Source: Clostridiaceae bacterium
GTDB lineage: Bacteria; Bacillota; Clostridia; Peptostreptococcales; Tindalliaceae
Direction: 5' to 3'
DNA: 64,000 nucleotides
Assembly (NCBI GenBank): GCA_011390155.1
Contig: JAABSW010000012.1
Coordinates: 1-64,000, forward strand
A program made the position numbers and the translations under genes. Each line of letters opens with the position of its first letter. Position 1 is the stretch's first letter. Positions 20,457 to 31,318 of this stretch are shown in pieces. The notes beneath the pieces are model-generated. The model saw only the letters and a program-made list of their open reading frames with translations, was not told the DNA's origin and did no database searches.

Positions 20457-21053
20457 TTATTCTATGCCAACACGCTCTCTAATGAATTCCAGGTTCATCA
20501 TGCCTTCCACCCTGTGTTTCACCAATCCGTTTTCATCGATGAACACACTGGTGGGTGTTGCCCTTACGCCGTATTCCACAGCAGCAAAATTATCTCTAGT
20601 ATCATACAACACCGGAAAAGTATAATCATGTTCTGCCATATAGGCCTCCACCTGCTGTTGAGAGTCTCTCAGATTAACAGACAATATGACTACCTCTTCA
20701 TTGCCATATTCATCGACAAAAGACTGAAAAACTTCCTTCTCTGCCAGGCAAGGCGGGCAACTTAGTTGCCAGAAATTAACAATCACCTGCTGTCCTCTTA
20801 AATCCCACAGGCAAACCTCCCGGCCTTCCAGGTCATACAGAGTAAAATCCGGAGCTGTGTTCCCCTGAAAAATGCCGATGGGTGGTGACTCATTCACTGG
20901 TTCTTCTTTTGTTGGCGATTCTTCAACATTCTCTTCTCCAGGAGCCACCGTTACCTCAGGCGCTTCCGTCTCAGGATTGCTGCAACCTTGCACAAATAAC
21001 AGTGAACCCATGAGGATAATCAAAATCACAATTGTTTTATTCTTCACTTTCAT
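20457..21053 (-). CDS. ResA/TlpA-like thiol-disulfide oxidoreductase lipoprotein
   Basis: About 198 residues. A lipoprotein signal ends at VQGC, an acidic linker follows, then a thioredoxin fold with the active site CPPC in WQLSCPPCLAEKE and the cis-Pro in ATPTSVFID. Such proteins reduce apocytochrome CxxCH cysteines or other disulfides outside the membrane. CcdA, encoded 18 nt upstream in the same direction, would pass reducing power to it. The 11-heme cytochrome and ResBC in this window are plausible clients. The start is ambiguous (ATG 21053, GTG 21056 or GTG 21047 share one GGGAG site). Confidence 0.9.
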   Translation of the reverse strand: MKVKNKTIVILIILMGSLLFVQGCSNPETEAPEVTVAPGEENVEESPTKEEPVNESPPIGIFQGNTAPDFTLYDLEGREVCLWDLRGQQVIVNFWQLSCPPCLAEKEVFQSFVDEYGNEEVVILSVNLRDSQQQVEAYMAEHDYTFPVLYDTRDNFAAVEYGVRATPTSVFIDENGLVKHRVEGMMNLEFIRERVGIE

Positions 21054-21070
21054 CACTCCCGTCTTTTATC

Positions 21071-21784
21071 TTACAGTGTGGGAAACCCTATTGACATTAA
21101 CCACAATGTTAAATCTGCCATTTTATCAAAAAAGATACCTGCGCCCAGCAGTACCAGCAAAAACCCACCTGCCTTGCTTACCTTGGCCAATACTTTATCA
21201 AACTTGGCAACAAAACCGTAAAACCATTTCAGGAAAAGAGCAGTCAGGATAAAGGGAATCCCCAGTCCCAGGGAATAAAAGCCAAGTAGCAGAATGCCCT
21301 GGGTCATGGTATCTGACATGCCTGCATACAATAAGATCCCTGCCAGCACAGAACCAATACATGGTGTCCATCCTGCAGCAAAGGCCACTCCCATCAAGAA
21401 TGCACTGACGGAACCACCACCGGCTTTTGGAACGGGTATGCGAAAGGTTTTTCCCAGTTTTTCCATGGGAATGACCCCCAGCAAATACAAACCAAAAAAA
21501 ACAATGAATGCACCAGCAATTCGGTTCAAAAATTGTACATACTGGTATAAGAACCGACCTACAGCACTTGCCGTTGCTCCTAAGGCGATGAAAACCAACG
21601 AAAAGCCCAGAACAAAAAATAAAGATCGAATGACCATTAAGCCCGTTCTGGGTTCTGCGTCATCTTCGTCATTAATCCCCGCGCTGATATAACCAATATA
21701 CCCTGGCACCAGGGGTAGAATGCAAGGCGACAAAAACGAGAGGCCTCCCGCGGCAAGGGCAACAATCCAAGACACTTCTGCCAT
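21071..21784 (-). CDS. ccdA: Cytochrome c biogenesis protein CcdA (thiol-disulfide membrane transporter)
   Basis: A 237-residue protein with six predicted membrane segments. The two redox cysteines lie in LSPCILPLVPGY and GWTPCIGSVLAG, the pattern of CcdA/DsbD-beta. It carries electrons from cytoplasmic thioredoxin to extracytoplasmic thioredoxin-like proteins. The TlpA-like lipoprotein follows directly, and together they form the reducing arm of System II cytochrome c maturation. ATG 21784 follows AGGAG. Confidence 0.95.
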   Translation of the reverse strand: MAEVSWIVALAAGGLSFLSPCILPLVPGYIGYISAGINDEDDAEPRTGLMVIRSLFFVLGFSLVFIALGATASAVGRFLYQYVQFLNRIAGAFIVFFGLYLLGVIPMEKLGKTFRIPVPKAGGGSVSAFLMGVAFAAGWTPCIGSVLAGILLYAGMSDTMTQGILLLGFYSLGLGIPFILTALFLKWFYGFVAKFDKVLAKVSKAGGFLLVLLGAGIFFDKMADLTLWLMSIGFPTL

Positions 21785-28852: not shown

Positions 28853-30742
28853 TTAATCCAGCAACCAGTTTAATGAAAGTCTTTTGAGTGTTGCTTCCCT
28901 TGGTTTACCATCCTGATCCCATCCCATGAATCCATAGTAGGATTCCTTCGCTTTTTCGAAATCGTCTTTCAGCATTTGATGCCCCTCCGATGGACCATTT
29001 GGCATTGGGTCAAATATACGCTCTGGCAGCACGTCATCCTTGGCGCTGAATCCATCCCGCACGTTAAACCATCGCATCATGTTGATACGTCGCTCCCCAA
29101 TGTCCATTAACTCCTGAACAGAAGTCTGCCAGCCAATGCCATATTTGCATGCATCCACCAATTCAGCAGGTCCGTATAACTGCCAGGATGGTCCCCAGGA
29201 AAATTGACATAGGCACAGTGTGTCCATCATGGAATAAAACTTTTGGCCTGCAATGGCAAATCGAACTTTTCCATCGTCCAGGGTTTTTTGTTCATCATAC
29301 TGGAGATTAATGCCCAGCATTCCCAACCATACTTGTTCTTTTGCGTCTGCCGGCATAGTGAGGAAGGGATCATGTTCACATGATTGGTGATCTGCACCAA
29401 AATTGTTAACGGCGTAGATCAGTCCCACAGCCGGTTTATATTGTGGCATGTGGGCAGGCAATTCCTGTTTTTTAACACTTACACTGAGTGGCAGTGCTTC
29501 AGGTCCCAGTTTTTCCGCCATGCGGTAACTGCCTTCTGCCATCATGTCGCCTATTCCTTCCCGCAGGGCAATTTTTTTGATCAGTTCCGGATAAACTGAC
29601 CCATTACCAAAAGTGATATCCATATCATCCACATCGTCTTTGGTCATAATGCCTTTTTCCATGCATTCCATGACAAAAGCGATGGTTGCTCCACATGAGA
29701 TGGTGTCTAACCCATACATATTACAGTATTGGTTTGCCACTGCTATGTCTTCCAGGTTCTCTGTCAAACAATAGGAACCAAAAGCTGCACAGGTCTCATA
29801 TTCAGGACCTCCATAAAAAGGATCCACTTTCCCTTCCACTTCCACCACACGCTTACAGCGAATGGCACAACTGAAACAGGTGTCTCGTCCCTTCAGAATG
29901 GTTTTGGCCATGGTTGTGCCGGTGATTTTCTTGGCTTTATCTCCAAAATACCCTGAACTAAAATTGTGTGTCGGTAAAAAGCCATCACGGTTATGACCGT
30001 TCAATTCACCATCTGTTCCAAATTTACCCAAAGCTTCAATGCCTTCATTCTCGATGATGCGTTCTTTCACGTTGCCTGTCAACGATTTAAAACCTTCCTG
30101 ATCCTCCGCCTTTCTTGCCTTACCTTTTTTTACCACCACAGCTTTCAAATGCTTTGACCCCATTACTGCTCCCGTACCGTTGCGACCGTTGGCACGATTG
30201 GACATGTTCATAATGGATGCATATTTAACCATGTTTTCACCAGCTGGACCAATTTGAGCAATTTCCAGTTGTTGATCATTCAACTCTTCTTTAATCATTT
30301 TTTCCGCCTCGCCGGTTACCTTTCCCCATACCGAAGAAGCATCTTTTAATACCACTTTTTCTCCATCAATGTAAAGATATACCGGTTTTTCTGACTGCCC
30401 CCGGAAGATAATGGCATCATAACCATTGATTTTCAGTTGGGCAGGGAAGAAACCACCTGACTGGCTGTCACCTATGGTACCCGTCAAAGGGCTTTTTGTG
30501 GTGATATTCAGTCGGCTTTGACCACTGATGGGCAATCCTGTGAGCACTGAAACTGAAAAAATCAACATATTCTCTGGGGATAACGGATCAATACCCGCCC
30601 CCATTTCCTGCAAGGCCAGGTATAACCCCAGGGAAGACCCTCCTGGGTACAACCTGTAAATCTCTCCTGGCAGTGATTTTGTATCAATGGTCCCTTTGCT
30701 TAAATCAATGTCCAATATTTTTGCATCAGGAAAAACACTCAT
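28853..30742 (-). CDS. Aldehyde:ferredoxin oxidoreductase family protein (tungsten/molybdenum)
   Basis: About 629 residues. The N-terminal domain has ILDIDLSKG and GGSSLGLYL, and NGRNGTGAVMGSKHLKA is typical of AOR. The 4Fe-4S ligands are in CFSCAIRC and a later Cys in DTLCLCQFSW. These enzymes bind tungsto-bispterin and oxidise aldehydes to acids (or the reverse) with ferredoxin in the cytoplasm. AGGAG precedes ATG 30742. A ThiS-like sulfur carrier and a small membrane protein follow. The AOR, formaldehyde and glyceraldehyde-3-phosphate branches are not distinguishable by eye. Confidence 0.93.
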   Translation of the reverse strand: MSVFPDAKILDIDLSKGTIDTKSLPGEIYRLYPGGSSLGLYLALQEMGAGIDPLSPENMLIFSVSVLTGLPISGQSRLNITTKSPLTGTIGDSQSGGFFPAQLKINGYDAIIFRGQSEKPVYLYIDGEKVVLKDASSVWGKVTGEAEKMIKEELNDQQLEIAQIGPAGENMVKYASIMNMSNRANGRNGTGAVMGSKHLKAVVVKKGKARKAEDQEGFKSLTGNVKERIIENEGIEALGKFGTDGELNGHNRDGFLPTHNFSSGYFGDKAKKITGTTMAKTILKGRDTCFSCAIRCKRVVEVEGKVDPFYGGPEYETCAAFGSYCLTENLEDIAVANQYCNMYGLDTISCGATIAFVMECMEKGIMTKDDVDDMDITFGNGSVYPELIKKIALREGIGDMMAEGSYRMAEKLGPEALPLSVSVKKQELPAHMPQYKPAVGLIYAVNNFGADHQSCEHDPFLTMPADAKEQVWLGMLGINLQYDEQKTLDDGKVRFAIAGQKFYSMMDTLCLCQFSWGPSWQLYGPAELVDACKYGIGWQTSVQELMDIGERRINMMRWFNVRDGFSAKDDVLPERIFDPMPNGPSEGHQMLKDDFEKAKESYYGFMGWDQDGKPREATLKRLSLNWLLD

Positions 30743-30884
30743 AACCTTTCTCCTCTCTTTCTTTCTTCGGTCAATTAAAATGTTGACCCTGCTTTGTCGG
30801 TTATTCGACAAAAAACATAAAAACCCTTCTTAACTTTCACATTTTTTAAAAGTTTCCATTCCATCAATCTTTGTGGTATTATAT

Positions 30885-30903: not shown

Positions 30904-30967
30904 TTTATCAGATGACTACCATTGCTAATAATCCTGTTTATCCATATTAATGATTGAAGGTGAATTC

Positions 30968-31279
30968 ATGAAAAATAACAAGGATCATCTCCTTGGCGCC
31001 GGAGCAATTGTTGGCGCCTTCTTATCAGCCATGTGCTGAGTGGTTCCCATGGTGGTTGTGTCACTAGGACTTGGTGGCTTCGCATTGTCATATGTCTCCG
31101 TGCTGGCACCTTACCAGCGCTACATTCAATTTGCAACCATAGGATTACTCATGTGGGCTCATTACCGTATGGACAAGCAGCCCATGAAACGCAGCACCAG
31201 GATTTTTATCTGGGCAGCAACAGTGGCTGTTCTGCTCTTTCTGCTCTCGCCACTCATCACACGTCTGCTGCTCTACTAA
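30968..31279 (+). CDS. MerT-like mercury transport protein with selenocysteine (Sec24)
   Basis: Read through UGA at 31037-31039 the frame is open from ATG 30968 to TAA 31279 and gives 103 residues. It has three hydrophobic segments and clear MerT architecture: GAIVGAFLSAMC-U-VVPM, then SLGLGGFALS and LAPYQRY. In MerT the first membrane segment holds a vicinal Cys pair followed by x-G/V-P (ACCLGP in Tn501) that takes Hg(II) from the periplasm; here the second Cys is Sec. The cytoplasmic Cys pair of classical MerT is absent, as in MerT-like variants. A SECIS-like hairpin starts 20 nt after UGA. Without recoding only a 23-residue peptide and a headless fragment would result. It is monocistronic, upstream of a terminator, with no merA/merR nearby. 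Inferred role: uptake or handling of Hg or another soft metal at the membrane. Confidence 0.85.
31040..31078 (+). promoter_or_regulatory. Candidate SECIS element of the MerT-like gene
   Basis: After the UGA, GUCACU (31060-31065) pairs with GGUGGC (31073-31078) including two G-U pairs. The loop AGGACUU starts 27 nt after the UGA and has G at its second base. Distance and loop fit the bacterial SECIS pattern; the stem is weaker than in the other two cases. Confidence 0.55.
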
Positions 31280-31280
31280 C

Positions 31281-31318
31281 AAAACCCCGGAAATCAATTC
31301 CGGGGTTTATGTTTTTTG
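31281..31318. terminator. Bidirectional terminator between the MerT-like and HAD genes
   Basis: AAACCCCGGAA pairs with TTCCGGGGTTT; T-runs occur on both strands. It lies between convergent genes. Confidence 0.88.

Follow-up and report, generated by a model that had tools for sequence, protein, structure and literature searches.

A UGA-recoded MerT-like selenoprotein with a Cys-Sec pair, a candidate soft-metal carrier of Tindalliaceae

The locus

The window, as we call the whole stretch of 64,000 nucleotides that was analysed, belongs to a genome of 2.7 Mb in 125 contigs (G000). It contains a short gene for a MerT-like membrane protein, the frame of which (30968-31279) holds one TGA only, at codon 24; the translation begins MKNNKDHLLGAGAIVGAFLSAMCUVVPMVVV when this codon is read as selenocysteine (Sec). 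The features are collected in Table 1, along with an hgcAB locus on another contig. The gene is monocistronic and, as the initial annotation stated, short with a terminator of its own. It stands alone between a divergent gene for an aldehyde ferredoxin oxidoreductase (AOR; 28853-30811, minus strand) and a convergent gene for a HAD hydrolase, with a ferritin gene nearby, and no metal-resistance gene is found beside it at the locus. Elsewhere in the window (20457-21784, minus strand) a thioredoxin-like lipoprotein is encoded next to a CcdA-like membrane protein, both judged by eye from their translations.

Table 1. Coordinates of the MerT-like gene and its associated features, and of the hgcAB locus of the same genome
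Feature	Position	Strand	Remarks
MerT-like selenoprotein gene	30968..31279	+	103 aa; TGA codon 24 = Sec; stop TAA; from translation
Ribosome-binding site GAAGGTG	30956..30962	+	5' of ATG 30968; read from sequence
First predicted helix, residues 3-32 (codons)	30974..31063	+	Cys23-Sec24 in second half
In-frame UGA for Sec24	31037..31039	+	adjoins Cys23 codon 31034-31036
Bacterial SECIS hairpin	31060..31078	+	stem 31060-31066 with 31072-31078; apical loop GGACU 31067-31071
Terminator-like hairpin, 11 pairs, then T-rich tail	31282..31308	+	
hgcA and Sec-type hgcB (GVGU)	L130:4756-6077, contig C30 of the window genome	-	ArsC-like gene just upstream

Evidence for recoding of the UGA codon

Each of the seven genomes of the family has one copy of the gene, with the TGA at the identical codon and the N-terminal segment intact. 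A cultured relative, Anoxynatronum buryatiense, has the gene as well (L009). Homologues beginning at GTG 31040 had been named as what would overturn the joined reading; none was seen. The family copies are 54-91% identical, and residues before as well as after the TGA are conserved. Among the seven closest genes, the differences at codon positions 1, 2 and 3 number 161, 59 and 279 on the 5' side of the TGA and 562, 226 and 950 on the 3' side; the pattern is alike up- and downstream, which indicates that both sides evolve as coding sequence.

A SECIS element had been expected within 31040-31078, and a hairpin was indeed found there. Its stem has seven pairs, and the apical loop GGACU, which contains G as required, begins 28 nt past the UGA. 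For the six-pair core, 97.6% of the cells in the 14 nearest genes are paired, six of them compensatory, and the covariation score is 0.266, whereas slid versions reach no more than 0.088. As the hairpin lies within a coding region, its stability was judged against synonymous-codon resampling (400 sets). The mean energy for 33 Sec genes is -7.95 kcal/mol, as against -2.30 kcal/mol for the null, and none of the 400 sets does as well; individually, 29 of the 33 reach p<=0.05, a level attained by none of the three Cys-Cys genes tested with the same null. By a plain folding z-score, in contrast, the MFE structure of the 54 nt that start at the UGA is not significantly stable (z = 1.28). The machinery for Sec insertion is encoded in the same genome, where selA, selB and the tRNA-Sec gene selC (C28:24295-24387, 73.4 bits) lie side by side on one contig. 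On this comparative evidence, recoding of the UGA in the MerT-like gene is confirmed.

Distribution and exchange of Sec and Cys

Beyond the family, the gene was found in 33 of 297 sampled genomes of the order, 10 of 391 of the class and 27 of 398 of the phylum, with one in-frame TGA in nearly all copies. At the codon-24 site, 57 of 61 distinct genes have Sec; the other four have Cys-Cys and are the homologues with CC replacing CU that the initial annotation proposed to look for. With few exceptions, the Sec proteins have exactly one Cys and one Sec each, as expected for a two-ligand site. The Cys is at position -1 relative to Sec in 46 genes (the window's type) and at -3 in 11.

Two of the Cys types are sister to Sec types in the tree, L067 to L065 (support 100/99) and L075 to L070 (support 98/92). 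The tRNA-Sec gene is present in every Sec-MerT genome tested, and none above the gathering score was found in G019 and G489, the genomes of these two Cys types, in which the copies found are all Cys-Cys. This fits a change from Sec to Cys in genomes that had lost Sec, the presumed direction. A further Cys-Cys copy, L071 (G083:C36), has a TAG within its frame at a site other than Cys; a Sec copy occurs in the same genome, and L071 is perhaps a decaying duplicate.

Relationship to MerT

Homology of the UGA-joined protein to MerT, as first proposed, is borne out. The Pfam MerT model matches the window protein at E=2e-7 (31.5 bits, 1.4 bits below the gathering cut-off of 32.9) and all 41 relatives scanned (E<=0.01, best 3.2e-14); the NCBIfam model MerT_RC607 likewise matches 41 of 41 (best 2.8e-27). 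Four plasmid MerT proteins served as references, three from annotated mer gene sets and a fourth that adjoins a putative mercury transporter and a MerC-domain gene. Aligned with these, Sec24 falls on the second Cys of the CC pair in the first transmembrane segment (TM1), the position assigned to it from the outset. The same alignment shows that the Cys-bearing cytoplasmic loop between helices 2 and 3 is deleted, so that the second Cys pair of classical MerT is absent, again as annotated. An AlphaFold2 model of moderate confidence (pLDDT 77, pTM 0.53) has three helices, at residues 3-32, 36-70 and 75-102. Searches of the PDB by sequence and by fold yielded nothing of use. According to PMC5715351, transport of Hg(II) by MerT requires the TM1 Cys pair.

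Classical MerT of the Tn501/Tn21 type (NF010314, PF02411) and the window protein share the TM1 pair at the aligned place, a Pro three residues past the pair, an LGxxG motif and three helices. They differ in that the window protein has Sec for the second Cys and lacks the cytoplasmic Cys loop, and in that its locus is without a merP/merA/merR operon. Among NCBIfam models, NF033560 (MerT_RC607) scores best, with a nearly full-length match, but the window protein reaches only 47.4 bits against a cut-off of 130. NF045683, for a MerT/CopZ fusion-like heavy metal transport selenoprotein, matches 40 of the 41 members, and MerT and CopZ are neighbouring genes in several relatives; the window protein, in contrast, has 103 residues, no CopZ domain and a score of 22.6 bits against a cut-off of 375.

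Another protein of MerT type with Sec is ABB16073.1, a putative mercuric transport selenoprotein (PF02411). The CITU member in genome G714 is presumably the gene of this protein, from Carboxydothermus hydrogenoformans. Its type has the motif C/SxxU, with Cys three residues before Sec, whereas the window protein has AMCU, with Cys directly before, and no rhodanese gene downstream. As early as 2008, a list of selenoproteins included a putative mercuric transport protein (PMC2398784), and a MerT-type selenoprotein also features in later reviews (PMC9312934 and PMC13188914, as C/SxxU); the window protein fits the description in the latter, being of PF02411 type with Sec at the TM1 pair. The Cys-Sec MerT, originally presented as new, therefore belongs to a selenoprotein family predicted earlier, to which the window gene adds a member. 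In the literature that could be read, no description was found of the split into CU and CxTU types with its rhodanese linkage, or of Sec-MerT coexisting with Sec-type hgcB.

Gene neighbourhoods

In the other genus of the family, the block AOR (or remnant)-MerT-HAD-ferritin-aspartokinase is kept, which suggests vertical descent and not a mobile resistance cassette. The AOR there, as far as seen next to MerT, is just a short ORF that resembles the N-terminus of AOR. Among more distant relatives the company is different. In seven of them, MerT is accompanied by an ArsR of CmtR-like type and by a CopZ-type protein (zf_CopZ plus Fer2_BFD). One CU relative, L115, lies just 3' of a MerR that passes the mercury-MerR cut-off (169.9 compared with 150.85 bits) and has Cys spacings of 35 and 9 residues, which we take to be those of Tn501 MerR. 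There are ars genes beside two relatives and copper P-type ATPases near three, some of these assignments having been made by eye. Taken together, these neighbourhoods suggest a link with soft metals as a group. Three of the CopZ-type neighbours (L070:5083-5571, L118:5276-5614 and L120:3968-4438) contain in-frame TGA codons, and such neighbours of Sec-MerT may be selenoproteins too.

Mercury-related genes of the genome

No MerA above the curated cut-off was found in the seven family genomes, the window's included; the search returned many flavoprotein disulfide reductases, all below that cut-off. The initial remark that neither merA nor merR is nearby holds, since the window gene is flanked by AOR, HAD and ferritin genes in a genome without MerA at cut-off. 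Nor does zf_CopZ occur in the window genome; as a partner of MerT within the family it was rejected, being present in one of the seven genomes only, and not the window's.

The genome does encode HgcA, the corrinoid protein of mercury methylation (413.7 bits, cut-off 275; motif NVWCAAGK). The adjoining hgcB reads GVG-TGA and then continues in frame to a Cys-rich tail, alike in G000 and G002, and the GVGU type is listed for HgcB (PMC13188914). In the window genome hgcB has a further TGA at its 3' end, which is probably a true stop and not Sec, as G002 ends there with a different stop codon. With hgcA and a Sec-type hgcB, the bacterium is a likely mercury methylator and probably handles Hg(II) inside the cell. 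It should be noted that hgcA is found in two of the seven family genomes, as against seven of seven for Sec-MerT, and mercury methylation cannot therefore be the general reason for the gene.

Possible functions

We consider it rather probable that the protein is a three-helix inner-membrane carrier of the MerT superfamily for soft metals, in which the Cys23-Sec24 pair would most likely serve Hg(II), possibly Cu(I), Cd(II) or As(III). A soft metal ion would be bound in helix 1 by the thiolate of Cys23 together with the selenolate of Sec24, and then passed through the membrane to a thiol or chaperone in the cytosol. In favour of this reading are the match of all 41 relatives to MerT, with Sec24 on the TM1 pair and, as a rule, one Cys and one Sec per protein; the mercury MerR, CmtR-like ArsR/CopZ, ars and copper ATPase genes that lie with or near relatives; and the hgcA and Sec-type hgcB of the window genome. 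Several observations count against it. The window locus has no metal-resistance neighbour, the second Cys pair is missing and the genome has no zf_CopZ, hgcA is much less widespread in the family than Sec-MerT, and the window member falls just short of the Pfam gathering cut-off. Moreover, as is known from mer operons, import of Hg(II) without MerA would be harmful unless another sink exists. Of the initial interpretation as a MerT-like transporter, the anatomy is supported, while mercury as the substrate and an effect of Sec on capture or release would be conjecture. We infer that the protein transports a metal, which metal and in which direction, and that Sec acts as a ligand rather than as a redox centre.

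Alternatively, the Cys/Sec pair might move reducing equivalents or sulfane sulfur across the membrane, the MerT fold having been recruited for a thiol or sulfur carrier. We regard this as unlikely; the case for it comes from relatives with the motif CxTU. In all nine CxTU loci examined (L110, L113, L114, L117, L119, L121, L122, L123 and L125), a lipoprotein rhodanese is encoded 16-57 bases downstream on the same strand, a CcmH-like protein is close by at one of them, and CcmH-like proteins appear in the ORF lists of others; CxxU is, besides, a common redox motif among selenoproteins (PMC13188914). The pairing of CxTU with rhodanese suggests a sulfur-related two-gene unit, and this subtype may do something other than metal carriage. 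However, none of the CU loci examined, the window's close kin included, has a rhodanese directly downstream. In MerT it is the vicinal pair that binds the metal, and the genes found with CU relatives are those for metal regulators and CopZ. A redox or sulfur function is thus a candidate chiefly for the CxTU subtype.

That the Cys-Sec pair captures a toxic soft metal in order to release it outside or retain it in the membrane, as an exporter or buffering trap, seems to us improbable. The lack of a MerA above cut-off and of a cytoplasmic Cys relay would suit such a function, as would the ars or copper efflux genes near some relatives, but the characterized MerT, MerC, MerE and MerF import Hg(II) (PMC5715351), and so small a protein has no evident energy source. 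A narrower form of the metal-carrier reading, in which a mercury pathway based on selenols takes in Hg(II) through Sec-MerT and supplies it to HgcAB, is prompted by the HgcA and Sec-containing HgcB of the same genome; we think it quite improbable. Finally, a reading of the TGA as a genuine stop, or of the gene as a decayed MerT, is very improbable: conventional annotation would end at the TGA and the 54-nt fold is by itself not unusually stable, but 57 relatives share the position of the TGA, the sequence before and after it evolves as coding, the covarying hairpin is absent from the Cys versions, two genomes with Cys versions have no selC, and selA, selB and selC are together in the window genome.

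Implications

Most known roles of selenocysteine are in redox catalysis; in this putative membrane carrier, it would probably act as a metal ligand. Nearly all members of the family (57 of 61) are of Sec type, and ordinary gene calling would end its members at the UGA. The arrangement of one Cys and one Sec is simple enough for a clean test. An importer that feeds HgcAB would, if true, answer how Hg(II) enters some methylating anaerobes, and it is the occurrence of hgcA and a Sec-type hgcB in the window genome that ties Sec-MerT to this question.
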